Positions 524 to 55,207 of a stretch of 64,000 nucleotides of DNA are shown here, piece after piece; position 1 is the first letter of the stretch; every line of letters begins with the position of its first letter. The DNA is from Candidatus Peribacteria bacterium (GTDB taxonomy: Bacteria > Patescibacteriota > Gracilibacteria > UBA1369 > 2-02-FULL-48-14): assembly GCA_943349825.1 (NCBI GenBank), contig CALQZQ010000002.1:124001-188000 (forward strand), written 5' to 3'. Position numbers and translations under genes: made by a program. Under the pieces are notes generated by a model. It had not been told where the DNA came from, ran no database searches, and saw nothing but the letters and a program-made list of their open reading frames with translations.

Positions 524-1312
524 TTAAGCGTTAAGTTCCAAGCCAATGGGACAATGATCACTGCCTTCCACGTCGCTCAAAATCCACGAGCGTTTCACGT
601 ATGGCAATAATTCTTGCGGCACAAAAAAGTAATCGATCCTCCAACCAACATTTCGTTGTCGTGCGGCCGAGCGGTAGCTCCACCACGTGTAAGCCTCCGT
701 CAGCCCCGGATTCGCATCCCGAAACGTGTCCACATAGCCGGCCGCCACAAACTTATCCAGCCACGCGCGTTCCACCGGCAAAAATCCGGTGATGCCTTCA
801 TTGGCTTTGGGATTGGCCAGATCAATTTCCGTGTGCGCGGTATTGAAATCCCCACAAATCACCAGGTTCTTCCCAGCCTTCCGCAGCTTCTCCAAAAAAT
901 CGAGCAGCTCGTCGTAATAATCCAATTTAAAGGCAATGCGGTGATCACCCTGCCCCCCATTGGGAATGTACAAGTTCACCACGGTCACGGTTCCACCGGG
1001 AAGCCCGGGAGCCGCAAGTTCCGTGAGCACCATTCGCCCCTCGCCATCGTGACGGCCGTTGCCCAGTTCTTTTTGCACGGTCATCGGTTTCTGCTTCGAA
1101 AAAGTCGTTACCCCACTATAACCCGGCCGCTCGGCACAAGCCCACTGGCTATAATAATCCAGCGGATTTTGTAGTTCTTGAGTGAGCTGCCCCGGCTGAA
1201 TTTTATTTTCCTGCACACACAGTACGTCCGGATTTTCTCTTTCCATGAATTCCACGAATCCCTTGTTCCACACCGCGCGGATGCCGTTCACATTGAAGCA
1301 AAGCAGTTTCAT
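524..1312 (-). CDS. xth: Exodeoxyribonuclease III (AP endonuclease)
   Basis: A 262-aa protein of the normal length for the ExoIII/ExoA family of Mg2+-dependent AP endonucleases, which cut DNA 5' of abasic sites and trim 3' ends during base excision repair. Visible family motifs are NVNGIRA near the N-terminus, the metal-binding Glu in CVQENK, NLYIPNG, CGDFNTAH with the catalytic Asp and Asn, WRIDYFF, and SDHCPI with the catalytic His at the C-terminus. All expected catalytic residues are present. The start is an ATG preceded at exactly 6 nt by a -10-like TAAACT, so the mRNA may be leaderless. The DUF6498-like gene follows after 2 nt. Confidence 0.95.
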   Translation of the reverse strand: MKLLCFNVNGIRAVWNKGFVEFMERENPDVLCVQENKIQPGQLTQELQNPLDYYSQWACAERPGYSGVTTFSKQKPMTVQKELGNGRHDGEGRMVLTELAAPGLPGGTVTVVNLYIPNGGQGDHRIAFKLDYYDELLDFLEKLRKAGKNLVICGDFNTAHTEIDLANPKANEGITGFLPVERAWLDKFVAAGYVDTFRDANPGLTEAYTWWSYRSAARQRNVGWRIDYFFVPQELLPYVKRSWILSDVEGSDHCPIGLELNA

Positions 1313-1318
1313 GGCTAT

Positions 1319-1324
1319 AGTTTA
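1319..1324 (-). promoter_or_regulatory. -10 box of a leaderless promoter for xth
   Basis: On the minus strand TAAACT is followed by 6 nt (ATAGCC) and then the ATG of xth. With a standard -10 to +1 distance, transcription would start at or next to the A of the start codon. No clear Shine-Dalgarno sequence is present. The same 6-nt geometry recurs at other genes in this window. Confidence 0.5.
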
Positions 1325-5245: not shown

Positions 5246-5539
5246 ATGCTCAATTTAAGGCTTAGTCCAGAGGGGAATTCGTTCCAGGGGGAACACGCAG
5301 ACCATGCCTTACGATTGGGTCTAGTAGATTTTCTTGAAGTGGAGGAGGGAGACAAGGTGGTGAGTTTTGCAGTAAACACTTTCCTGGGAGCAGCGAGGCA
5401 GGCCGTGGATGACGTCCCTTTCGCTCTGAATCAAAATGAATTTTTGGCAGCACTCCACGCGGGAGAAATCCAGCCCAACCACATCGTGGACTTGGCGCGC
5501 CAGCTCAAAGTTTCTACTATTATTTCTGTAAAAGCTTGA
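5246..5539 (+). CDS. Small protein of unknown function
   Basis: I prefer ATG 5246 (MLNLRLSPEG) because AAGGTG at 5234-5239 then serves as a Shine-Dalgarno sequence at 6-nt spacing. The track start at GTG 5237 overlaps that site. The 97-aa product is soluble and mildly acidic, with no family I recognise. It lies 21 nt after the previous small gene in the same direction, so the pair may be an operon. Confidence 0.6.
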   Translation: MLNLRLSPEGNSFQGEHADHALRLGLVDFLEVEEGDKVVSFAVNTFLGAARQAVDDVPFALNQNEFLAALHAGEIQPNHIVDLARQLKVSTIISVKA

Positions 5540-5585
5540 GAAATCAGGGAGGCTTGAGTAAACTGCCAGGGCTTTAGGCCTTTTT

Positions 5586-6677
5586 ATGAACATTCAAATC
5601 GCCATCGTCGGACTCCCCAATGTAGGGAAATCAACTCTCTTCAACGCGTTGACCAAAAGTCAGGCGGCTCAAGCGGCGAATTATCCGTTCTGCACCATCG
5701 ATCCCAATGTGGGCGTGGTGGAAGTTCCCGATGAACGACTTCAAGCGCTAGCTAAAATCACGAACCCCAAGAAAATCATTCCCGCGATTGTGGAATTTGT
5801 GGACGTGGCCGGACTCGTGAAAGGCGCCAGCCAAGGCGAAGGACTCGGCAATCAATTTTTGTCACACATCCGCGAGTGCCATGCGGTGGCTCAAGTGGTC
5901 CGTCACTTCAAAGAAAAAGACATCACCCACGTGCACGACAGCGTGGATCCCAAACGCGACCGTGAAATCATCGAATCCGAACTCATGCTCGCGGATCTGC
6001 AAACCCTCGAAAAAAGAATGCACAAGGCTGCCAGCGAAGCCCGTGGAGGAGCCAAAGAAAAAGTGATTTACAACGAACTGCTCGAACGAATCAAACCCCA
6101 GCTTGAATCTGGAAAGTGGCTCAGCACGCTCGAATGGACCGACGAGGACCGTGAACTGCTGCGCGACCTGCACCTCATCACCATGAAGCCCCTGATGTAC
6201 ATCGTGAATGTGAGTGAAAACGACGTCGCCACCATTTCCGAAGACACTCTCCGCAACGATCTCGGACTCCCCACAGGCACCGCCGTGATCCCGATTTCCG
6301 CGAAAGTGGAATCGGAACTCATCGCATTTTCAGAAGAAGAAGCCAAAGATTTCCTGCAAGAACTGGGACTCAAAGAAACGGGCCTTCGCCGCGTGATCCG
6401 CGAAGCCTACGATCTGCTGGGCCTCCAAACCTACTTCACCGCCGGAGAAATGGAAGTGCGAGCGTGGACGGTGCGAAAAGGAGCCAAAGGGCCGGAAGCA
6501 GCCGGCGTGATCCACACCGATTTTGAAAAAGGCTTCATCAAAGCGGAAGTCATCGACTGGAAAGATTATGTGGCCTGCAACGGCGAATCTGGCGCGCGCG
6601 AAAAAGGCTTGCTCCGCATTGAAGGGAAAGACTACCTTGTTCGTGACGGCGACGTCATGCATTTCCGCTTTAACTGA
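5586..6677 (+). CDS. ychF: YchF/OLA1-type ATPase
   Basis: At 363 aa it has the usual length for YchF, an Obg-like P-loop ATPase that associates with ribosomes. Visible are the Walker A GLPNVGKSTLFNALT, the G2/G3 region VEFVDVAGLVKGASQGEGLGN, and NVSEND in place of the G-protein NKxD motif, which explains the ATP preference of the family. The C-terminal TGS domain (LQTYFTAGEMEVRAWTVRKG to the end) is complete. The stop overlaps the next ATG at position 6677, so translation is probably coupled to the HisA-like gene. Confidence 0.95.
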   Translation: MNIQIAIVGLPNVGKSTLFNALTKSQAAQAANYPFCTIDPNVGVVEVPDERLQALAKITNPKKIIPAIVEFVDVAGLVKGASQGEGLGNQFLSHIRECHAVAQVVRHFKEKDITHVHDSVDPKRDREIIESELMLADLQTLEKRMHKAASEARGGAKEKVIYNELLERIKPQLESGKWLSTLEWTDEDRELLRDLHLITMKPLMYIVNVSENDVATISEDTLRNDLGLPTGTAVIPISAKVESELIAFSEEEAKDFLQELGLKETGLRRVIREAYDLLGLQTYFTAGEMEVRAWTVRKGAKGPEAAGVIHTDFEKGFIKAEVIDWKDYVACNGESGAREKGLLRIEGKDYLVRDGDVMHFRFN

Positions 6678-7339: not shown

Positions 7340-9302
7340 TGGAGACCACTCCATCCACTTTGCGAAGCGACCGCAGGGTGCGCTCGTATTCTTTCACGTC
7401 AAAAATTTCCAAAATAAATTCCATCCGGGAAAGGCTGGAATTGGGACGAGGCAAGGATTGAATGGCGATGATATTGATCCCCAAATTCGCCAATTCATTG
7501 GAGAGATCACGGAGCAGTCCAACACGATTTTGACTTTCGATCACCAACTCGACACGGTGCACTTTTTGTATGGATTCGGATTTCAAACGGCGCGCCTGAT
7601 GACGGTCGTAAACATGAACATCGAGAAGATCGGTCTCCGATCCTATGAGGTCACTTTCGTTGAACAAGCAACCCAAAAGTTCCGATAAATCTACATTGCC
7701 TTTCCCGAGTTCGTACAAAAGTTCTTCCCAGGTTTCAATGCCAAAATGTTCCATGGCCACTACTTTTTGAAGGGGAGTGAGAGCAGTCATGCCGGCCAGT
7801 CCGAGCACCTGCAACTTGTGATCCAAAACTTCCTCTGCGTCATCGAGCACAGTGGTACGATCTTGTTCTTTCAAAAATTCACGTATACGAGTTTTCGCCA
7901 AGTGTGTGTGTACATGGTCGAGCCACTCCATTTGAGGTCCGTCGGATTCTTCGCTCGTCACCACATGCACGGTATCTCCGCTGGAAAGTTGAGTGGTGAG
8001 AGGCGCCGGCTTCCCATTGATTTGTGCAGAAACGGCGAGCATCCCGAGGTCGCTGTGAATGTGATAAGCCAGGTCAATCACGTTGGCACCACGCGGCAAA
8101 TCCACCACGTCGCCCTTTGGGGTGAAAACGAAAATTCGGTCTTCAAAAATATCCAACTTGAGATGTTCGAGGAATTTTCGATTGGAAGAAATATTGCGTT
8201 GAAGGTCCAAAATCTTTTGTACCCATTTGTATTTCTTCTTCACATCTTTTTTAAGAGTGGTTTGTTTTTTGTTGCTGTAAAAATAATGTGCGGCGATTCC
8301 ATATTCATTCTCCAAATGCATCTCTTGCGTACGGATTTGGAACTCCGTCACAATTCCATTCATTCCAAATACAGTGGTGTGAATGCTTTGATAACCGTTG
8401 CTTTTGGGAATGGCGATATAATCTTTTAAACGCCCAATTTTTGGAGTGAAATGTTGGTGTAAAATTCCCAGCGTTTGATAACAAGTCCCAATGTCTTCCA
8501 CCACGATACGTACGCCCAGCAGATCGTAAATTTCGTGAAAACTCTTTCCGCTGCGGAGCATTTTTTTATAAATGCTGTAGAGGTTTTTTTGACGCCCTTC
8601 GATAGCTACGAACGGAACTTTTTTAGCGCGCAAGAGTCGAGTCACGGCTTGAATCGTTTTTTTGCGAACGCTCTCCCGCTCTTTTTCAGAAGCCTCCACC
8701 AGACGAATCATTTCAGCATATTCTCGGGGCAACAAAACGCGGAAACAAGCATCCTCCAGCTGATTTTTGACTTCCCAGATTCCAAGCAAGTTCGCAATCG
8801 GCACATAAATTTCCAAAGTTTCTTTCGCAATACGGTGGCGTTTTTCGGGCTTGGGCACCGCTTCAATCGTTTGCATATTGTGCAAGCGATCCGCCAATTT
8901 AATGATGATGATACGAGGATCCTGCGCACTGTGGATGAAGAGTTTTTTCAGCGATTCAATTTGGCGCGCTTCCATGTCGTCACGGTAGTGGACTTTGGAA
9001 AGTTTGGTGATTCCATCTACTAAAAAACGCACCTTGTCTCCGAATCGCTCTTCAATATCGTCGAGGGTGCGCTCTGTGTCTTCCGGCACATCGTGGAGGA
9101 GACAAGCAATCAGGGTGTCTTCATCCACGCGGAGCCCGGTCAGAATAATGGCCGCGCTCACCGGATGGGTGATGTAGGGAGTGCCGTCCTTGCGCAACTG
9201 GCCTTCGTGAGCAGCTCGCGCAAACTCAAAAGCATCGCGAAGCCGAGCTTCATTCAAGTCAGGAAGATAAGACCGTGCCGTGCTGATGAGCCGTTCGATC
9301 AT
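7269..9302 (-). CDS. RelA/SpoT bifunctional (p)ppGpp synthetase/hydrolase
   Basis: A 677-aa long RSH protein that makes and breaks the stringent-response alarmone (p)ppGpp. The N-terminal HD hydrolase domain has LLHDVPEDT and LADRLHNMQT. The synthetase domain has RIVVEDIGTCYQTLG and GRLKDYIAIPKSNGYQSIHT; RxKD is the charge pattern of bifunctional enzymes. A TGS domain (FVFTPKGDVVDLPRGAN) follows near residue 390 and an ACT domain closes the protein. An extended -10-like TGTTTTAGT ends 7 nt before the ATG. The final 23 codons overlap the convergent HisA-like gene. Confidence 0.95.
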   Translation of the reverse strand: MIERLISTARSYLPDLNEARLRDAFEFARAAHEGQLRKDGTPYITHPVSAAIILTGLRVDEDTLIACLLHDVPEDTERTLDDIEERFGDKVRFLVDGITKLSKVHYRDDMEARQIESLKKLFIHSAQDPRIIIIKLADRLHNMQTIEAVPKPEKRHRIAKETLEIYVPIANLLGIWEVKNQLEDACFRVLLPREYAEMIRLVEASEKERESVRKKTIQAVTRLLRAKKVPFVAIEGRQKNLYSIYKKMLRSGKSFHEIYDLLGVRIVVEDIGTCYQTLGILHQHFTPKIGRLKDYIAIPKSNGYQSIHTTVFGMNGIVTEFQIRTQEMHLENEYGIAAHYFYSNKKQTTLKKDVKKKYKWVQKILDLQRNISSNRKFLEHLKLDIFEDRIFVFTPKGDVVDLPRGANVIDLAYHIHSDLGMLAVSAQINGKPAPLTTQLSSGDTVHVVTSEESDGPQMEWLDHVHTHLAKTRIREFLKEQDRTTVLDDAEEVLDHKLQVLGLAGMTALTPLQKVVAMEHFGIETWEELLYELGKGNVDLSELLGCLFNESDLIGSETDLLDVHVYDRHQARRLKSESIQKVHRVELVIESQNRVGLLRDLSNELANLGINIIAIQSLPRPNSSLSRMEFILEIFDVKEYERTLRSLRKVDGVVSITRVQNELSIPLSLDDVQKKRVQ

Positions 9303-9361
9303 GAGTTTGACTAAAACAGATTCCTATTTTATATTAACCAAGCGCTTTGGCGCAAGATCAT

Positions 9362-11007: not shown

Positions 11008-11016
11008 TGGTATAAT
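11008..11016 (+). promoter_or_regulatory. Extended -10 promoter of a leaderless sortase gene
   Basis: TGG-TATAAT is a consensus extended -10 element and is followed by exactly 6 nt and the ATG at 11023. Transcription would begin at or next to the start codon. No -35 box is obvious, as expected for extended -10 promoters. Confidence 0.7.
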
Positions 11017-11022
11017 GATCTG

Positions 11023-11901
11023 ATGACTCAGAACCCTCTCATCCGCCAACTGGCCCTGCAAGTGGACCGCCGCATCCTCCACACCGAGGACGCCGACTAC
11101 GTGCGCATGGACATTTCCGCCCACGAACACCTGATGGCCGCCGCCGTCACGCTGGTGCGCCCCACCAACACTTGGGAAGGAGTCAAAAGCTTCGCCATCG
11201 CGAGCCTGGTGATTTACCTAGGCCTTTTCAGCATCACCAATGCCGCCGCCTACAGCAAAATCGCCCTCTCGAGCGTGCAAGACGCCGTCCAAAACTATGA
11301 AGCGAACATCCCGGTACAAAGCGCCGCCGCGCTCACCCTGGACCCCTGGACGCAAAAAATCCTCAGTACCACGACAGCCAAAAACCCTACCACGACCCAA
11401 CCCGCCGACGATCTCGCCGCCCTGCTCCCGACTCCGGCCAGCAGCAACGACCGCATCGTGATTCCCAGCCTCAAAGTGAACGCTCCGGTGATTGAGCCCA
11501 GCCTGGGCCTCGAGGCCCTCAAAGCCCAAGATTTCACCACGCTGGAAGATCAAATCCACGAAACTCTGCTTCAAGGTGTGGTGCACTACCCCGGCACCGC
11601 CGAGCCCGGCCAAAAAGGCAATGCTTTCCTCACGGGCCATAGCTCCAATGTATTTTGGGAACTCAGCGATTACAACACGGTCTTTGCACTTCTGCCCAAA
11701 ATCAAAGTGGGGGACGACATTTACGTCACCAACAATCTCACCGAATACCACTACCGCGTCGTCGACAAAAAAGAGGTCCAACCGACCGATGTGAGCGCTC
11801 TACAGCAAGGCGACGATTACAAACTCACCCTCGTGACTTGCACGCCGGTGGGAACGACTTTCCGCCGCTTAGTAGTGACCGCGCTGCTCGTTAAGGATTA
11901 G
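11023..11901 (+). CDS. Sortase-family transpeptidase
   Basis: I use ATG 11023 (MTQNPLIRQL), which the promoter position supports, giving 292 aa. An N-terminal cytoplasmic stretch is followed by one membrane anchor (SFAIASLVIYLGLFSITNAA) and an extracellular sortase domain. The catalytic triad is visible: His in FLTGHSSN, Cys in LTLVTCTPVG and Arg in FRRL. Sortases link secreted proteins to the envelope or polymerise pili in monoderm bacteria. No LPxTG-type substrate was noticed in the window. The 3' end overlaps the convergent 156-aa gene by 11 nt. Confidence 0.9.
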   Translation: MTQNPLIRQLALQVDRRILHTEDADYVRMDISAHEHLMAAAVTLVRPTNTWEGVKSFAIASLVIYLGLFSITNAAAYSKIALSSVQDAVQNYEANIPVQSAAALTLDPWTQKILSTTTAKNPTTTQPADDLAALLPTPASSNDRIVIPSLKVNAPVIEPSLGLEALKAQDFTTLEDQIHETLLQGVVHYPGTAEPGQKGNAFLTGHSSNVFWELSDYNTVFALLPKIKVGDDIYVTNNLTEYHYRVVDKKEVQPTDVSALQQGDDYKLTLVTCTPVGTTFRRLVVTALLVKD

Positions 11902-12361
11902 TCGCCGTTGGCGCACTAGGATCCACTTGATCGAGCTGCTTCAAAAGCTGTTCTTGAGTCTGAGCTTCGGTCGCCTTTTCCGCTTCTTCAGCCTTTTGCA
12001 GCTGCACACGTTCTTGCTTGTGTTGGAAGGCATTCCATTCCTCCAAATGCTTCTTGTTGAGCTTGGAAAGTTCGTCCTGATATTGATCATCCAGCTTGGC
12101 CAATTGATTGGTTTCTTCCTGCAAAATGGTCTTGAGTCGCCCCACTTGTTCTTCGGTCATGATCGGCAAAATCTGGAACCAATAATTGCGTTCATCGTCC
12201 GACATCGATTCGGTCTTTTTGATGAGCTCCACCAAGTCCGGATACTTATCCAAAACCACTTGGGGAACCGTATATTGTTTACCCGAAGCGCTTGCCGTAG
12301 TCACTGGAGCGACTGCTGCGGGCGTTGTAGCGGCTGGATTGATAGGCGTAGTAGGATCCAT
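11891..12361 (-). CDS. Pro/Ala-rich protein with charged helical domain, paralogue of the 36194 gene
   Basis: A 156-aa protein. The first 30 residues are low-complexity Pro, Ala and Thr. Residues about 50-145 form a charged, probably coiled-coil domain. This domain aligns with the C-terminal half of the 239-aa protein at 36194: DERNYWFQILPIMTEEQV against DEKKKIVESIPKLRQEQV, then both continue with EE, L, KL, H and W at matching spacing. No signal peptide or membrane helix is present. It has its own extended -10 (TGTTATAAT) 8 nt before the ATG, and it follows the 939-aa gene in the same direction. Function unknown. Confidence 0.7.
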   Translation of the reverse strand: MDPTTPINPAATTPAAVAPVTTASASGKQYTVPQVVLDKYPDLVELIKKTESMSDDERNYWFQILPIMTEEQVGRLKTILQEETNQLAKLDDQYQDELSKLNKKHLEEWNAFQHKQERVQLQKAEEAEKATEAQTQEQLLKQLDQVDPSAPTATNP

Positions 12362-12369
12362 ACAAAACT

Positions 12370-12378
12370 ATTATAACA
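12370..12378 (-). promoter_or_regulatory. Extended -10 promoter for the 156-aa gene
   Basis: On the minus strand TGT-TATAAT lies 8 nt before the ATG at 12361, giving at most a few untranslated bases. It falls in the 19-nt gap after the 939-aa gene, so the downstream gene can be transcribed on its own. Confidence 0.65.
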
Positions 12379-24738: not shown

Positions 24739-25369
24739 TGCGATCAGCCAGAGTTAAAGCCACAATATTTTCCGCTCCCGCCGCCCTTAGCGCCTCTGCG
24801 CACGCGAGCAAGGTGGAGCCGGTGGTCACTATATCATCCACCAGAACGATTTGACCACCCGCCGGAATCCGCCCAAGCACTTCAAAGGCCCCGGCCAAAT
24901 TCCCGAGCCGCTCCACTCGTCCACCCACTTTCACCTGGCTCTCCGTCTCCCGCACGCGCCTCAGCAAACTCAGCACGGGCGCCCCAATAGCCCGACCCAC
25001 GCCCTCAGCCAAAAGCTCAGACTGATTGTAACCGCGCTCCAACTCACGCTTCTTATGCAGCGGCACCGGCACCAAAATCACCTGAGAAGGCTCCAACAAA
25101 AGTTTCAACGCTTCTCGGAGTGGTGGCAGCAAAAACCGCACCACATCGGCCTGATGCGAGTACTTCAAAGGATAAATCAGCCGCTCGAGCAGATCGCCCT
25201 CCTCAAAATACAGCGCCGAACCGACCTTCAAACCTTCTAACGAGCGTACATGCGGATAAAACCCCAGCCTGTCCCGGCACCGCGAGCAGAGCGCCTCGCC
25301 CAAATACCCGCACGAAACGCAGGGCACCGGGAACATAAACCTGACGACAGTATGTAAAAGCTTCAACAT
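24683..25369 (-). CDS. comF: ComF-family phosphoribosyltransferase-like protein
   Basis: I take ATG 25369 (MLKLLHTVVRF) over the TTG at 25399. The 228-aa protein has a ComF zinc finger (CVSCGYLGEALCSRCRD) followed by a type I PRTase domain with VPVPLHKKRELERGYNQSELLA and the PRPP motif IVLVDDIVTTGSTL. ComF homologues take part in DNA uptake or processing of imported DNA. The -10 box TGT-TATGCT lies exactly 6 nt before the ATG, predicting a leaderless transcript that continues into two glycosyltransferase genes. Confidence 0.9.
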   Translation of the reverse strand: MLKLLHTVVRFMFPVPCVSCGYLGEALCSRCRDRLGFYPHVRSLEGLKVGSALYFEEGDLLERLIYPLKYSHQADVVRFLLPPLREALKLLLEPSQVILVPVPLHKKRELERGYNQSELLAEGVGRAIGAPVLSLLRRVRETESQVKVGGRVERLGNLAGAFEVLGRIPAGGQIVLVDDIVTTGSTLLACAEALRAAGAENIVALTLADRNEAPPTPWQRLPQTAAPA

Positions 25370-25375
25370 AGCTAC

Positions 25376-25384
25376 AGCATAACA
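25376..25384 (-). promoter_or_regulatory. Extended -10 promoter of leaderless comF
   Basis: On the minus strand TGT-TATGCT is followed by 6 nt (GTAGCT) and ATG. There is no room for a Shine-Dalgarno sequence. This supports the ATG start over the upstream TTG. Confidence 0.6.
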
Positions 25385-26151: not shown

Positions 26152-26157
26152 TACACT
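26152..26157 (+). promoter_or_regulatory. Extended -10 promoter of the NUDIX gene
   Basis: TGC-TACACT ends 9 nt before the ATG at 26167, predicting a leader of only two or three bases. No Shine-Dalgarno motif is visible. Confidence 0.45.
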
Positions 26158-26166
26158 GGACGCAAT

Positions 26167-26682
26167 ATGAACGATCAATTTCACGATTCTAAAAAATCCT
26201 CAGAAAAGGGGAGGGGAAGCCGTTCGGGAAGGCCTGCAGGCCGCTCTCGACGCCGTGACGTGCACGAAAAATCCTGCGGGGTGCTGGTGTACCGCCGCGA
26301 CGAATCCGGCATCAAGTTCTTGCTCCTGCATTACCCGGGCGGCCATTGGGATTTTGCCAAAGGCCATGTGGAAAAGCGCGACGCCTCGGAAACCGCCACG
26401 GCCCTGCGCGAACTCACCGAAGAAACTGGCATCACTCAGGTGGAATTCAACGAAGGCTACAAGCACTCCATGTATTACGAATTCAATCGAGGCCCCCGTG
26501 AACGGGTGAAGAAAATAGTCGTCTACTTTCTGGCTGAAACCCCGGAGGAAGTGGTGAAGATTTCCTTCGAGCACCAAAACTTCATCTGGCTGCCCTACGA
26601 AGAAGCCCTGGAACGCCTGACCTACGAGAACGCCAAAGAACTCCTGCGTAAAGCCCTTCCGCACCTGCAATATGAGCTTTGA
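26167..26682 (+). CDS. NUDIX hydrolase
   Basis: A 171-aa protein. The first 35 residues are basic and disordered (SRSGRPAGRSRRRD), followed by a NUDIX domain starting SCGVLVYRR. The NUDIX box reads GHVEKRDASETATALREL then TEETGI. Compared with GX5EX7REUXEEXGU it has Asp for the first Glu and one extra residue before RE; the metal-binding REL..EE core is intact. The overall form resembles diadenosine tetraphosphate hydrolases. Its stop overlaps the helicase start by 11 nt, so translation is probably coupled. Confidence 0.9.
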   Translation: MNDQFHDSKKSSEKGRGSRSGRPAGRSRRRDVHEKSCGVLVYRRDESGIKFLLLHYPGGHWDFAKGHVEKRDASETATALRELTEETGITQVEFNEGYKHSMYYEFNRGPRERVKKIVVYFLAETPEEVVKISFEHQNFIWLPYEEALERLTYENAKELLRKALPHLQYEL

Positions 26683-30504: not shown

Positions 30505-31067
30505 AGAGGGGCTAAATAAGATTTCAAAGTTTTTTTTGCGCGATTCAGGTGCACTTTCACGGTGTTCAGAGGGATTCGCAGCACCTCCGCAATCTCTTCA
30601 TAGGACAGGTCTTGAATGTAGCGCAGCTGCACCACCACCTGATATTTTTTCGGCAGCTTTTGGACCGCCGTTTGCACCTCCTCAACCACTTCGTGCTGAG
30701 CCGCTTTTTCCCGCGGGTTCAATTCTTTCCCCTGCACCCGTTCCACGAAGGAATCTTCCTCTTCTTCGCGTTCCAAGTCTGAGAAATTGAAGTTTTTTTT
30801 CTTCTTCGCCAGGTTGCGGCAGAGGTTCACGCAGATCGTCATCAGCCAGGGCTTCAGCAGGATTTCCCGATCGCTGTTCTTCATCAGCGATTCGTAGGCC
30901 CGGACGAAAGTTTCTTGAGCCACGTCCTGCGCATCTTCACTGTTGTGGGTGAATTTGTAGGCCAACCAGTATACGGGGCGATGGTATTTCTCAACGATCG
31001 CCGCAAACGCCGCTGATTCACCGGAGAGGAGGAATTCCTGGAGCAGAATGCTGTCTGGATCACGCAT
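30501..31067 (-). CDS. ECF-type RNA polymerase sigma factor
   Basis: A 188-aa sigma-70 family protein with only regions 2 and 4. Region 2 is EKYHRPVYWLAYKFTHNSEDAQDVAQETFVRAYESL, including the -10 recognition helix. Region 4 has LPKKYQVVVQLRYIQDLSYEEIAEVLRIPLNTVKVHLNRAKK, a typical helix-turn-helix for the -35. The linker between them is unusually acidic (DLEREEEEDSF). It is translationally coupled to the probable anti-sigma gene. A consensus TATAAT at 31079-31084 lies 11 nt before the ATG. Confidence 0.95.
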   Translation of the reverse strand: MRDPDSILLQEFLLSGESAAFAAIVEKYHRPVYWLAYKFTHNSEDAQDVAQETFVRAYESLMKNSDREILLKPWLMTICVNLCRNLAKKKKNFNFSDLEREEEEDSFVERVQGKELNPREKAAQHEVVEEVQTAVQKLPKKYQVVVQLRYIQDLSYEEIAEVLRIPLNTVKVHLNRAKKTLKSYLAPL

Positions 31068-31111
31068 GGTTTCATACTATTATACAATCGGGAAAAGAAA
31101 AAGTTTCGTGA

Positions 31112-32947: not shown

Positions 32948-34651
32948 TTAAAGCTCGAAAGGAAGGGCTAAAACATCGCCTTTGCGCAAGTCTGCAGCGG
33001 CTGCTCTTCCAATACGATTGTAATCCCAGAAGACTCGATCGAAGCTCAGGTCCTTATGTTGTTTCTGTATTCGCGTAAGTATTTCACCGGCAGAATCACC
33101 CTTTCTTACAGTATACAAAGCCACCTTTTTCGGACTAGTGGCAAGATAAGCTTTTGCCAATTCAAGTTTGTCCTGAGGCACCCACAACTGAACAGTTCCT
33201 GCATTATAGTCTTGATCCCGTGGATCCCCATAATAAGCTCCTGCTCGCACAAACGCGGCATTCCTTCCCAGCAAACGAAACTCCTCAGGGGTCAATCCCA
33301 AGTGTTCAGCAAACTGAACAAGGTCTAAGCCGACAGGAACCTCCATGCTTGGGGTGTGGGCAAGCTCTGCAACAAAATCCTGCACAGGAGTTTGAGGCTT
33401 TACCAGAGAATACGTCTTCCCTTTGAATTCAAGTTCCATCGTCCCTCCAGCCTCAAGTGCATGCCATTGATCCATAAGTTCCTTGAATGCAAAAGCCTGC
33501 CATAAATAAGTTTGTCGTTCAGTTTTCGCCCCCTCGCTGTCGCTGGTTCTGAGCGCGTGCCCCATGTCCATATCGAAAGAAGTGACCAAATTCAAAGAAA
33601 ACAGAGAAACTCCATCTTCATTGACAATGTCTTTTCCTTCCACTGTGGCTTCTAAGAAATTCGTAAATACAAGTTTCGCTACACCGGCCGCACCCATGTT
33701 GTAGGAGTGGATGGCAAAGCCTTCGGGATCCGCAATTTTTACAGGTTCGGAAGGAATGGTCTTCGCGACTATGGACGCATAGCGATCTTGATAACGAGCC
33801 CTTGGAGTTTTAGGAATACTCAAGCGCTCTTCAAAGGCATCCAGCCTGGTTTGATGCGTAGTGGAATTCACTTCAGCTTCAAGCCATTGTTGAATCGAGC
33901 CGGAATACTTCTCCAAAAGCCCCTGGATGGTTTCAGGAAACTTGTCGCCCAGCAGTTTTAGGTAAGCTAAACCATAGAGGATCCCATACAAAGGATCGTA
34001 GCGCAGGTCGTACCAAGCATTCATCTTTTTAGAATCAATACCAAGCTCATCAGGCTTCATCTCTGGGTAGGCACGCAGCAAAACAGAACGGGTGTCACTC
34101 ACGGCATCTTTACCAATTTGTCCCAGACCTGAGTAACCGGAAGGGGACCGTTTAAGCGGATTGAATCCGGCCTCTATGCCGAAATAAGCAAGCACATCGG
34201 GATCCAGACCAACAGATTGAGCGTGGTCTTGAATCAAGGTTTCATACCTTCCCATTCGAAGCAAAACTCCATGAAAATCCTCCTCAATCGCCCGTTTCCA
34301 ATAATCCTCATTGAGCTCACCTTTTTTGCGGGCGCTGAACTTCAACAACAAATGTTGAAGCGCTTTTTCATGCATTTCTTTGAACCTAACTTCGTCTAGG
34401 ATCTCAATGCTATGGCCTAAAAATTTAATCTGTGGACGCCCCGGCTCAACTTCAACAGGTTCAACTGGCGCCACAGGAGCGGGCTCTACTATTTCCTCCG
34501 TACATCCGCCCACACCAGGGATGCTAGCCATACCCAGCACCGCAGCTAAGCCGCCCAGAAAAGATCGACGGTCCACATCAAGTTCCTGAGACCTCAAAGG
34601 CGCCTCAGTTAAGTCCTCACTGCCATCCTGGATTTCACCGCCAAGCTTCAT
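32948..34651 (-). CDS. Lytic transglycosylase-like lipoprotein with LysM domain
   Basis: A 567-aa protein. The N-terminus has a twin-arginine-like signal (DRRSFLGGLAAVLGMAS) ending in a lipobox with GVGGC, so it may be exported folded and then lipidated. The catalytic region resembles SLT transglycosylases: YFGIEAGFNPLKRSPSGYSG with the conserved Glu, followed by GLGQIGKDA. The C-terminal 55 residues (LYTVRKGDSAGEILTRI ... LRKGDVLALP) form a LysM-type peptidoglycan-binding domain. It likely cleaves peptidoglycan glycan strands at the membrane surface. A leaderless promoter precedes the ATG. Confidence 0.85.
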   Translation of the reverse strand: MKLGGEIQDGSEDLTEAPLRSQELDVDRRSFLGGLAAVLGMASIPGVGGCTEEIVEPAPVAPVEPVEVEPGRPQIKFLGHSIEILDEVRFKEMHEKALQHLLLKFSARKKGELNEDYWKRAIEEDFHGVLLRMGRYETLIQDHAQSVGLDPDVLAYFGIEAGFNPLKRSPSGYSGLGQIGKDAVSDTRSVLLRAYPEMKPDELGIDSKKMNAWYDLRYDPLYGILYGLAYLKLLGDKFPETIQGLLEKYSGSIQQWLEAEVNSTTHQTRLDAFEERLSIPKTPRARYQDRYASIVAKTIPSEPVKIADPEGFAIHSYNMGAAGVAKLVFTNFLEATVEGKDIVNEDGVSLFSLNLVTSFDMDMGHALRTSDSEGAKTERQTYLWQAFAFKELMDQWHALEAGGTMELEFKGKTYSLVKPQTPVQDFVAELAHTPSMEVPVGLDLVQFAEHLGLTPEEFRLLGRNAAFVRAGAYYGDPRDQDYNAGTVQLWVPQDKLELAKAYLATSPKKVALYTVRKGDSAGEILTRIQKQHKDLSFDRVFWDYNRIGRAAAADLRKGDVLALPFEL

Positions 34652-34657
34652 GCCCGA

Positions 34658-34666
34658 ACAATAACA
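34658..34666 (-). promoter_or_regulatory. Extended -10 promoter of the leaderless transglycosylase gene
   Basis: On the minus strand TGT-TATTGT is followed by exactly 6 nt (TCGGGC) and ATG at 34651. Confidence 0.55.
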
Positions 34667-36175: not shown

Positions 36176-36184
36176 TGTTAAAAT
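36176..36184 (+). promoter_or_regulatory. Extended -10 promoter for the 239-aa gene
   Basis: TGT-TAAAAT ends 9 nt before the ATG at 36194, predicting a leader of about three bases. Confidence 0.5.
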
Positions 36185-36193
36185 AGAGACGCA

Positions 36194-36913
36194 ATGGACG
36201 ATCAAAACAACCAGAATCAAGGGGGCGGGTACATGGGAGGCTTCTCGTTTGGTACGGGAGGTTCTCAACCAACCCCACCACCACCTCCTCCGGTGCAACA
36301 ACCCGTGCAGCCTGTTCAACCTGCGTATCAGCAGCCTGTTTACAATCAACCGGCGGCTCAGCCCGTGTACGAGCAACCGGCCTACCAACAACCTGTTGCA
36401 CCCCAGCCTTACCAAGCCCCGCAGCCTGCTTATCAAGCCCCTCAACCGGCTTATCAGGCTCCTGCTCCGCAAGCCCCCATGGGTGGCGGAATGATGGGCG
36501 ACGACCAAGGTGCTGGTGGCCAGCCTCCTTTCGATCCCAACTACCGTTTTGGAGATCGAATGAAGAACTTCACCACGAGCATCGCGTGTCCCGCGCACAG
36601 CCTCAAGTTCGACGAAGCCTACTTCATCAATCTCTTAGCCGGCTCCATTTCACTGAGCAAGGACGAAAAGAAAAAAATCGTCGAATCCATTCCCAAACTC
36701 CGCCAAGAACAAGTGGACGAACTCATTCGCATCTTTGAAGAAGAACGCGCCAAGTTCGTGGAACTTTCCGCCAAGCACGGAGCCCAACTCAAAAAACTCG
36801 AAGACCAACACGCTGCCGACTGGCGCGACCTCGAAATCGAACAAAAAGCCGTCGCCCAAAAAGCCGACGAACAAAACAAGGCAGATGATATTAGAAAGCA
36901 GTTGGGGATTTAG
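36194..36913 (+). CDS. Pro/Gln/Tyr-rich protein with charged helical domain, paralogue of the 11891 gene
   Basis: A 239-aa protein. Residues about 25-110 are low complexity with a repeating YQAPQPA / QPVYEQPA unit. After a Gly/Met linker, residues about 120-239 form a charged helical domain: DEAYFINLLAGSISLSKDEK, SIPKLRQEQVDELIRIFEEE, then KKLEDQHAADWRDLE. That domain is clearly related to the one in the 156-aa protein at 11891. No signal peptide is present. The low-complexity part suggests a flexible or scaffold role, but the function is unknown. It overlaps the convergent proS by 4 nt. Confidence 0.75.
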   Translation: MDDQNNQNQGGGYMGGFSFGTGGSQPTPPPPPPVQQPVQPVQPAYQQPVYNQPAAQPVYEQPAYQQPVAPQPYQAPQPAYQAPQPAYQAPAPQAPMGGGMMGDDQGAGGQPPFDPNYRFGDRMKNFTTSIACPAHSLKFDEAYFINLLAGSISLSKDEKKKIVESIPKLRQEQVDELIRIFEEERAKFVELSAKHGAQLKKLEDQHAADWRDLEIEQKAVAQKADEQNKADDIRKQLGI

Positions 36914-38409: not shown

Positions 38410-38437
38410 TTGACAAAAGATTAAAATATATTAGAAT
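38410..38437 (+). promoter_or_regulatory. Consensus promoter of a leaderless gene
   Basis: TTGACA at 38410-38415, a 16-bp spacer and TAGAAT at 38432-38437 are followed by exactly 6 nt and the ATG at 38444. The A of the start codon is the predicted +1. This is the clearest leaderless promoter in the window because both boxes are present. Confidence 0.75.
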
Positions 38438-38443
38438 ATAGGC

Positions 38444-39058
38444 ATGATTAAATCAGTGGATTACACTCAGTGGGGTAGAAACGGCATGGAAAGGAGTCGC
38501 TTCCAGGGTGCGCGCTACCAGCTAGACAATCTGGAAGACATGTTTACTGTTCGTAAAGAACTTCTAGCTATCTTGGAAGAAAGTCATTCTAGCCTAGAAC
38601 AAAGGATTTACGACACAAATGCAGTGGCTTTCACCGAAATACCGAGAGCCCCAAGAGCGGAACCTTTTCTCTTGGATACCTGGAAAGGAGTAACTAGACA
38701 CGCTATACCTTCAGAATTGGAAGAGGCGATGAAAACCCTAAGAAGAGGGGCCACGGTGGCAAGAGTAGTCCCGGGCATGGGCGCATTCCTTCGCTACAAC
38801 GCTACAGCTGAACAAAAGCAAACAGTTCATGCACTCACACAAAAGGAAATCGACACGGTGGGAATGGATTTTGTCTTTAGAGGGGAAACGAAGCTAGGCA
38901 CCACAGTAAAAGAGTTCTTAGAGAGTTTGGGTATAGTTCAAAAAAATCCAAAGGGAGAAAGCCCTGCAGATACTTACTCAATAAGCGCTCCGTTCAACAG
39001 AACTCGTGAAGAAGAGGGCCACTACAGGAACTTACTGCTCCAACCCCTCCTCAACTAA
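38444..39058 (+). CDS. Protein of unknown function (204 aa)
   Basis: A soluble protein with a basic N-terminal part (QWGRNGMERSRFQGARYQ) and no signal peptide or recognised domain. It is convergent with the large membrane protein gene and overlaps its end by 4 nt. The consensus leaderless promoter suggests strong expression. Confidence 0.6.
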   Translation: MIKSVDYTQWGRNGMERSRFQGARYQLDNLEDMFTVRKELLAILEESHSSLEQRIYDTNAVAFTEIPRAPRAEPFLLDTWKGVTRHAIPSELEEAMKTLRRGATVARVVPGMGAFLRYNATAEQKQTVHALTQKEIDTVGMDFVFRGETKLGTTVKEFLESLGIVQKNPKGESPADTYSISAPFNRTREEEGHYRNLLLQPLLN

Positions 39059-40811: not shown

Positions 40812-42065
40812 TTAAACTTGCATGAGTCGCACGACTTTCTGCAGCATTTTGGTGAGGATTTTTTCTTCGGTCAGAATTTCCATACCGATGCTCGCCAGAG
40901 CAATGGCCGGAATATCCTGAGGAGATTCGAGGAGCTTGGTTTCATCCTTCACGTGCGAAATGTTTTTCGGCAGGAGGTATTTGATCTGCGGTTTGCGAGG
41001 AAACTTGAGTTTCTTGTGCCACTCAGAACCTTCCAAACCGTCTTTCAAAAGGGGAAGCAAAGATCCACCGCCACAAAGATAAACGGTTGGAGGCAGGGAA
41101 TCAATGTCGATGCACTCTTGGAGTGAAAAATAAATACCGGAGAGCCAAATGTCGGTGTCGCTCTGCAGCGCCTTCGCCACAATGGAATAGGACTGGTGCT
41201 CCAGCTGCCCGGTGGAAAAAGCGATCTTCACTTCCTCCGCTTCCTCCTGCGAAATGTTGAGCGATTGAGCGAGCCGCTTGGTGAAGGCACGTCCTCCCAA
41301 ATTGAACATCTTGGTGGCCACCACACTGCCATCCTGCACAATCGTGATGTCCGTAGTGCTGCCGCCAATGTCCAAAAAGATTCCGCTGTAGCCTTGCAGC
41401 TCTGTGCCGCCGAGCAAGCGTCCTACCGAATACGGCTCGGCCATGATGGCGAGCAGTTCTTTATCGAGCTCGGCCGAAATCGTTTGCAGCGCCCCAAAAT
41501 GCACGATGGGCGAAAAGGCATTGAACACACTCATGGTCACTTCGCGGCCTTGGAAGCCAATGGGGTTGGACACTTTGTAGCCGTCGATGCGCGTGTCCAC
41601 AATGGCCGCGTGCACCAGTTTCACGTCGATTTCGTTGAAGCCCGTTTCAAAAGCCAAATCGCCGCGCACTTTTTCAAAGGCTTTCCACTGCACTTTGTGC
41701 ACAATATTTTTGAGTTCCTCTTGATGAATCTTAGAACCGGGATCGCGACGCTTGTACGAAATCGTAGAAGTCGCGCCCTTAATGAGTTCACCGGAAACAC
41801 CGAGCACCAGCTGCCCGGGGCTCACCCCAGCCATCCGTTCGGCTTCGCGCATCGCCGCATGGCAGTGCTCAATCACACCGGCAATATCGGTGATCGTGCC
41901 GGATTCCATCTCTCCGGGGTTCTGCCGCTTCATGCCGCGGCCCAAAATGTGCACCTCTTTGCCCTGTTCCAAGCACACGAGAGCCTTCACGTTTTCTGTA
42001 CCTATGTCTAGGACGGTGAACAGGCGTTCGCGCTTAGGAGCAAGCGGATTTTTGATTCCAAACAT
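40812..42065 (-). CDS. PilM/FtsA-like actin-fold ATPase
   Basis: A 417-aa protein of the actin/Hsp70 superfamily. The phosphate-1 motif is LFTVLDIGTENVKALV, phosphate-2 is IFLDIGGSTTDITIV, and the adenosine motif is VYLCGGGSLLP. A 1C/SHS2-like insert follows the first motif, as in FtsA and PilM. FtsA tethers FtsZ to the membrane and PilM is the cytoplasmic part of the type IV pilus alignment complex. The single-pass partner downstream favours a PilM-like role, but FtsA cannot be excluded. The promoter is leaderless. Confidence 0.8.
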   Translation of the reverse strand: MFGIKNPLAPKRERLFTVLDIGTENVKALVCLEQGKEVHILGRGMKRQNPGEMESGTITDIAGVIEHCHAAMREAERMAGVSPGQLVLGVSGELIKGATSTISYKRRDPGSKIHQEELKNIVHKVQWKAFEKVRGDLAFETGFNEIDVKLVHAAIVDTRIDGYKVSNPIGFQGREVTMSVFNAFSPIVHFGALQTISAELDKELLAIMAEPYSVGRLLGGTELQGYSGIFLDIGGSTTDITIVQDGSVVATKMFNLGGRAFTKRLAQSLNISQEEAEEVKIAFSTGQLEHQSYSIVAKALQSDTDIWLSGIYFSLQECIDIDSLPPTVYLCGGGSLLPLLKDGLEGSEWHKKLKFPRKPQIKYLLPKNISHVKDETKLLESPQDIPAIALASIGMEILTEEKILTKMLQKVVRLMQV

Positions 42066-42071
42066 GGCGCC

Positions 42072-42077
42072 AGTGTA
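42072..42077 (-). promoter_or_regulatory. -10 box of the leaderless PilM/FtsA-like gene
   Basis: On the minus strand TACACT is followed by exactly 6 nt (GGCGCC) and ATG at 42065. Confidence 0.55.
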
Positions 42078-54598: not shown

Positions 54599-54691
54599 AA
54601 TCCTTCATTGAAAAGTCTTCCAACTCCCTCTACACTAGCTCTGCCTTTAAGGCATTTGTTCTTTGTAAATGTGGGCCCGTAGCTCAGTTGG

Positions 54692-54925
54692 TTAGAGCAG
54701 GAGGCTCAAGTCGAGCGAAGCTACGTTGAGATTAGGATTATGAGTTTCTGCGTGACAATTGTTACAGAGCAGAATGCATTTTTTGAGTTCTTTTAAGATG
54801 AATTCCTCTTTTCTATTGGAAAGAGCGCGTGCATCTAAATTGAAATCTTTCTCTTTAGGGTTGAGATGGTGAAAGGCAAGGGCGGATAGATTTTTTCTAT
54901 AACCACACTTGCTGCATTTACTCAT
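54692..54925 (-). CDS. HNH homing endonuclease-like ORF, antisense inside the tRNA intron
   Basis: A 77-aa protein reading opposite to the tRNA. It has a zinc-type pair CSKCGY, then LAFHHLNPKEKDF (HH of the HNH motif) and KKCILLCNNCHAETHN (N..H with a second zinc pair). This is a compact HNH nuclease of the type often found in group I introns. The frame ends inside the tRNA 5' exon, overlapping it by about 15 nt. It occupies what would be the loop of intron helix P1. Being antisense, it can be expressed only from its own transcript. Confidence 0.82.
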   Translation of the reverse strand: MSKCSKCGYRKNLSALAFHHLNPKEKDFNLDARALSNRKEEFILKELKKCILLCNNCHAETHNPNLNVASLDLSLLL

Positions 54926-55153
54926 AACCGAATTTTATCTCAATATGCTTCCCTTGCAAGGGCTGTTGGTAGAGGAATCTACCAATGAACATTTGCCAAA
55001 TTCGGGGAACCCTTCCTGCATCATGCAGTGGCGATCCCGAGCCAAGACCTCATTGAGGTAAGGTGTAGAGACTAGACGGCAAACACCCAGAACGGGTGAA
55101 GGTATAGTCCAGCTCACGAACTCGAAAGAGGTCACGAAAGTGATAGCGAGACG
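54707..55153 (+). other. Group I intron, IC3-like (447 nt)
   Basis: The 3' half has the conserved core in order: a P2 hairpin TTGGTAGA-GGAA-TCTACCAA, CCAAATTCGGGGAACCC (P3/P4), CGAGCCAAG, AAGGTGTAGAGACTAGACGG (P7) and GAAGGTATAGTCC (J8/7-P7), close to the well-studied tRNA-Ile(CAU) intron of Azoarcus. The proposed boundaries satisfy both rules: the 5' exon ends in U and the intron ends in G. A possible guide sequence GGCT at about 54960 pairs with the exon end GGCU through a U-G pair. The exact splice sites are inferred. Confidence 0.88.
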
Positions 55154-55207
55154 CATAACTTCTTGGTCGTTGGTTCAAGTCCAACCGGGCCCACCATCCA
55201 AAAGTAC

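Follow-up and report, generated by a model that had tools for sequence, protein, structure and literature searches.

Sigma-70-type promoters predicted to give leaderless mRNAs in a CPR order without detectable Shine-Dalgarno use

In a lineage of the CPR/Patescibacteria, an order without detectable use of Shine-Dalgarno (SD) sites, a -10 hexamer is found exactly 6 nt before the start codon ATG far more often than expected. Based on an analysis of the DNA sequences, we assign a probability of about 85% to the reading that sigma-70-type promoters give leaderless mRNAs in this order, that other genes carry short leaders, and that the anti-SD core of the 16S rRNA is drifting. Ordinary promoters would be placed such that the A of the ATG is the first transcribed nucleotide; the 5' ends of the mRNAs would then coincide with this A, and initiation would be driven by 70S ribosomes and fMet-tRNA.

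Promoters at a fixed distance from the start codon

The stretch of DNA under study (the window, 64,000 nt) belongs to an assembly of 1.25 Mb in 12 contigs. According to a comparison of YchF sequences, the closest named relatives are Peregrinibacteria/Peribacteria (CPR), with at most 59% identity. TGA is the stop codon of 104 out of 379 called genes, hence the standard bacterial code applies. As a single window offers low statistical power, the sample was extended by another 400 kb of the same genome and by 400 kb from a genus-mate; the own-genus sample thus consists of 464 kb (window included) plus 400 kb, and samples comprised 140-464 kb per genome. Genes were called by means of a simple in-house coding model, which is blind to upstream sequence. 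In the following, d6 denotes a TAnnnT exactly 6 nt before an ATG, and background rates are means over spacings of 13-34 nt.

The initial annotation had named six genes with a -10 hexamer, six bases and an ATG, and a check of the window sequence bore this out for every one of them (Table 1). A search for ORFs of at least 60 aa that begin with the ATG of a TAnnnT-N6-ATG recovers these six starts plus two more on the minus strand (31067 and 54925), along with antisense and internal chance matches. The site at 31067, which had not been listed before, precedes the gene of an ECF sigma factor. The site at 54925 (TAAAAT-N6-ATG) is the start of a 77-aa HNH-like ORF (54925-54692, minus), which lies inside a group I intron (Rfam RF00028 match at 54941-55134); this intron apparently splits a tRNA gene with the anticodon CAU (54675-55197). 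Among the genes said to have their -10 box at 7-9 nt, those at 12361, 26167 and 36194 were correctly placed, whereas relA was not.

Table 1. Promoter elements and predicted leader classes of start sites in the window.
Gene	Position	Strand	Elements	Predicted class	Family match
xth	1312..1324	-	-10 TAAACT (1319-1324), 6 nt, ATG 1312	leaderless	TIGR00633
sortase gene	11008..11025	+	extended -10 TGGTATAAT, 6 nt, ATG 11023; TGG-TATAAT-GATCTG-ATG, as initially annotated	leaderless	PF04203
comF-like gene	25369..25381	-	-10 TATGCT (25376-25381), 6 nt, ATG 25369	leaderless	Pribosyltran (PF00156)
ECF sigma factor gene	31067..31079	-	-10 TAGTAT (31074-31079), 6 nt, ATG 31067	leaderless	PF08281/PF04542
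gene initially called transglycosylase	34651..34663	-	TTGACA upstream; -10 TATTGT (34658-34663), 6 nt, ATG 34651	leaderless	no match in Pfam search
gene 38444	38410..38446	+	TTGACA, 16 nt, TAGAAT (38432-38437), 6 nt, ATG	leaderless	
PilM-like gene	42065..42077	-	-10 TACACT (42072-42077), 6 nt, ATG 42065	leaderless	PF14450/PF11104
gene 12361	12361..12375	-	TATAAT, 8 nt, ATG	near-leaderless, leader ~2 nt	
NUDIX gene	26152..26169	+	TACACT, 9 nt, ATG 26167	leader ~3 nt	PF00293
gene 36194	36179..36196	+	TAAAAT, 9 nt, ATG	leader ~3 nt	
relA	9302..9331	-	TAAAAT, 23 nt, ATG 9302; no SD	short leader, ~17 nt; not leaderless	
ychF	5559..5588	+	TAAACT, 21 nt, ATG 5586	short leader	PF06071

In the own-genus sample, d6 sites precede 69 (16.0%) of the 431 promoter-proximal genes that start with ATG, whereas each of the other TAnnnT spacings from 0 to 19 nt accounts for 0.7-5.8% and the background mean is 3.8% (binomial p ~8e-24). 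Outside the window, 64 of 393 promoter-proximal genes have such a site. The value drops to 3.6% for operon-internal genes (6/166; p 7e-6 versus promoter-proximal ATG genes), to 2.9% for GTG/TTG starts (2/70; p 0.001 versus ATG), and to 0.5% for internal in-frame ATGs; Bacilli treated with the same caller gave 1.4% and no peak. When gene calls were ignored, TATAAT-N6-ATG was counted 19 times in the whole genome, as compared with one occurrence of the reversed pattern. About one quarter of the TAnnnT d6 sites are to be expected by chance. Many d6 gene starts align with their orthologues at residue 1; the d6 geometry itself is poorly kept gene by gene (two of six in the genus-mate, one of six in G004), and its enrichment is merely weak in two genomes of the order, G011 and G020. 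In a set of 286 CPR genomes, the leaderless pattern occurs commonly but unevenly, as exemplified by 124 occurrences versus 10 of the reversed pattern in G141 and by 16 versus 52 in G105. Within the phylum sample, TATAAT-N6-ATG was most frequent in family f26 (G141, G187 and G310), with counts of 113-124 versus 8-14; G310 has both SD and leaderless genes.

Further promoter elements accompany the d6 sites. The triplet TTG starts at -35 in 13 and at -34 in 9 of them (22/69), and at any other tested position in 0-3. An extended -10 TG at -15/-14 is present in 14/69 d6 sites versus 10/362 other promoter-proximal genes. Position -1 is C or T in 62/69 cases, as against 105/166 operon genes; because the same holds for 277 of the 362 other promoter-proximal genes, this preference is supportive but not specific. 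As judged from these features, the d6 sites are laid out like classical sigma-70 promoters whose predicted +1 is the A of the ATG. The exact spacing, the -35 TTG, the extended -10 TG and the pyrimidine at -1 together argue that this A is very probably +1 in d6 genes, and that their mRNAs are hence leaderless; the prediction that leaderless initiation is a widespread mode is strongly supported, also by the confinement of the signal to ATG starts and to promoter-proximal genes and by clean negative controls.

Two other origins of the d6 signal have to be weighed. Start regions are G-poor and TAnnnT is a weak pattern, so that the hexamers might not be promoters and might simply reflect start regions that are unstructured and AT-rich, or else starts that were called wrongly. 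We regard this as very unlikely, since it is countered by the exact spacing with its matched -35 and TG elements, by the near absence of d6 sites at operon genes, internal ATGs and GTG/TTG starts, and by the peakless Bacilli; moreover, the xth start in the window corresponds to residue 1 of its family model (TIGR00633, model position 1). Somewhat less remote, but still improbable, is the idea that the d6 sites are real promoters which give leaders of 1-4 nt instead of none. The choice of the start by sigma-70 varies by 1-2 nt, and the spacing distribution has a shoulder at 7-9 nt; the maximum at 6 nt is sharp, however, and with this spacing +1 would be the A of the ATG, in front of which stands a C or T.

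Short leaders and the absence of Shine-Dalgarno sites

Leaderless initiation had initially been proposed as a main mode of this organism. It is indeed predicted to be widespread, but "main" goes too far: the strict excess at 6 nt over background amounts to 12.2% of promoter-proximal genes (95% CI 8.9-15.6), and promoters of short-leader genes are about twice as common. A relaxed count (TA alone, 5-8 nt) gave an excess of 28% (23-34). Excess counts were used because an EM mixture, which we had tried for determining the leaderless fraction, picked up the general G-depletion and not promoters. With a stricter promoter pattern, namely TAnnnT together with either TTG at proper spacing or TGn, the distances to the ATG are bimodal: a peak at 6-9 nt and a trough at 10-19 nt are followed by a second peak at 20-28 nt, which corresponds to predicted leaders of about 14-22 nt. 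For the 431 genes, 61 of these promoters are located at 5-9 nt (leaderless class) versus 126 at 19-29 nt (short-leader class). Neither Bacilli nor internal ATGs show this bimodality. A short-leader peak stands out clearly in the own family and in several families of the order, but not in the class family f18 or in G028. Promoter-proximal genes would accordingly fall into two groups, being either leaderless with the -10 box at 6 nt or equipped with an SD-less leader of ~14-20 nt, and intermediate lengths would be rare.

SD sites were searched as AGGA, GGAG or GAGG in SD position, using the same pipeline for all genomes. Since the ATG/GTA imbalance makes a reversed-pattern control useless, we relied on spacing-window controls. 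SD-like sites were found in 1.3% of promoter-proximal genes versus 4.5% in the control window. The earlier statement that only a few genes show an SD-like site was consequently correct and even too cautious, as sites of the kind seen at rpsT, maf and the gene at 5246 are no commoner than chance. Across the ten genomes examined from the order and class, SD sites precede 0-5% of the genes, which is at or below the control windows in nearly all cases; the positive controls reached 50% (Bacilli), 53-56% (CPR genome G151) and 33-52% (G310). SD sites are missing even from G004, G005 and G011, where the CCUCC core is intact. By this search, SD use is undetectable throughout the sampled order and class. 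The prfB genes of nearly all relatives are full-length open frames without stops, which is consistent with a loss of the SD-dependent frameshift, though not specific for it.

With respect to the translation machinery, IF3 was found in 20/20 relatives and an S1-like protein in most of them; the latter is represented in the own genome by a 423-aa open frame, whose match is below the family cut-off. A search for S21 (TIGR00030) gave no match in 17/20 relatives, including the own genome, and a match in 3/20, which makes an anti-SD sequestration of the bS21 type unlikely here. The window also encodes YchF, for which PMC12641178 cites a link to leaderless translation.

The 16S 3' end and a YTAACC element

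The 16S tail of the own genome and of the genus-mate is GGACCAUCUCCUUUUAAGGAG, with a core UCUCC where CCUCC is canonical. Other members of the class have the cores CUUCC, UUUCC, CCUCU, UCUCU, UUCCC or CCGCC; most other CPR have kept CCUCC. The variant cores still complement the sequence directly downstream, the pairs being CUCC with GGAG, CUCU with AGAG, UUCC with GGAA or GGGAA, and UUCCC with GGGGAA; at two core positions, a joint change from C-G to U-A was found in four genomes each. Because MAFFT misaligned the 3' arm, an alignment of the 16S tail was abandoned in favor of folding native and swapped arms. When downstream arms were exchanged at random between genomes, the mean fold was weaker in 2000/2000 trials of this test, which ignores relatedness. 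The hairpin is also present in most CPR with intact cores, and Firmicutes possess a similar sequence downstream of 16S; it is therefore probably a general feature of 16S 3' maturation. In the genomes with drifted cores, it seems to be the constraint remaining on the core. Freedom from SD pairing would have allowed the core to drift, and the hairpin between core and downstream precursor would have been retained, probably for 3'-end maturation.

It is extremely unlikely that the anti-SD changes are assembly errors of MAGs or pseudogenes and that SD sites are merely rare. The genomes are uncultivated and usually offer one 16S copy per assembly, but the variants are found repeatedly, in several genera and families, along with compensatory downstream changes that match them; SD sites, too, are missing from the mRNAs even where CCUCC is intact. 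Era was considered as an explanation of anti-SD conservation and set aside, as most matches comprised a pair of GTPase domains within a single frame of ~450-500 aa, which fits Der/EngA. The two genomes of the order whose S21 match exceeds the cut-off (G006 and G011) have fully canonical 16S tails, GAUCACCUCC; a link between retention of the anti-SD and S21 is possible.

Leadered genes of the own family (G000, G001, G004 and G005) are enriched in a YTAACC element. For k-mers starting at -16 to -11, TAACC was counted 58 times (2.8 expected), TAACCC 31 times (1.0), CTAACC 22 times (1.2) and TTAACC 23 times (1.8). A scan in the own genus that does not depend on gene calls gave a peak at N7-N10, and at a moderate score ~20% of leadered genes lie above control. 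In other families of the order, the element is less pronounced; according to k-mer counts, it is absent from the class family f18, from Bacilli and from SD-using CPR. In leadered and operon genes it is located roughly at the SD position, and it is probably a translation signal, which may help to position the ribosome. A transcription-start or upstream-stop feature is a less plausible, rather unlikely explanation, in favor of which one may note that in short-leader genes the element is near the predicted mRNA 5' end, and that the TAA within YTAACC is a stop codon. Yet the distance of the element to the ATG is nearly constant (sd 1.35 nt), unlike that to the -10 box (sd 6.9), a comparison biased by the 6-position motif window in which the former value was determined. 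Divergent genes, too, are preceded by the element (33 occurrences versus 3.5 expected), as are close operon genes in which the upstream stop is nearer to the start than the element is (21 occurrences versus 3.5 expected).

Whether the order has replaced SD by a YUAACC ribosome-positioning element near the SD position, alongside leaderless initiation, is in our estimate an even bet. The loop of 16S helix 37, GGUUAAG in this order, is complementary to CUUAACC over 7 nt. As the chance of some 7-nt match in 1.45 kb of rRNA is ~9%, this complementarity is merely a lead, and we consider the loop an improbable partner of the element. The class family f18, from which YTAACC is absent, has a helix 37 with a different stem; in family f15, which has a variant helix 37, one gene still carries CTAACC. 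The helix-37 loop of L116 and L126 of this family is GGUUCAG and not GGUUAAG.

Relation to known systems and significance

Actinobacteria genomes with TA-led genes also retain SD-led genes. In such TA-led genes, TANNNT lies ~12 nt before the start, and they make up >20% in Actinobacteria and Deinococcus-Thermus according to the available text of a survey (PMC3160421), which does not mention CPR there; a sizeable proportion of genes preceded by TANNNT is a trait shared with the present lineage. In Deinococcus-Thermus, TANNNT precedes the ORF by 6-7 nt in nearly one third of the genes; it functions there as the -10 box of sigma-70 promoters, and the resulting mRNA is leaderless (PMC12340547). 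As judged from sequence, a fixed distance (6 nt here) is common to both systems. In contrast, Deinococcus also has an RBS motif (GGAG), whereas SD sites are absent from the present lineage; many of its d6 sites have a -35 TTG, and the consensus resembles TAAAAT, as compared with TACACT in Deinococcus-Thermus (PMC12340547). Loss of CCUCC together with loss of SD sites, as seen here, has been described for Flavobacteria, hemotropic Mycoplasma and insect symbionts; these known cases belong to other phyla, and CPR are not mentioned in the available parts of the sources (PMC3522020, PMC6107228). Anti-SD loss accompanied by SD loss was also reported for other phyla in PMC10783764. In Bacteroidia, the anti-SD is sequestered by bS21/bS18/bS6 (PMC9976891); these resemble the order in that SD is unused although an anti-SD may be present, and differ in that S21 was not detected in most of the relatives examined here.

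In the open-licence literature, we found no paper on leaderless or SD-dependent initiation in Patescibacteria/CPR, although an earlier description is possible; the YTAACC element and the compensatory downstream hairpin were likewise not found described in the papers searched. Leaderless genes as such are known already, but for CPR, which constitute a large share of bacterial diversity, the literature found holds no description. Programs for gene finding, as well as expression designs, will put starts in the wrong place in these genomes if they presuppose an RBS. A clade without SD sites, with a drifting anti-SD, a retained hairpin and a new element in leadered genes would offer a natural test of what a bacterial ribosome requires for finding the start.
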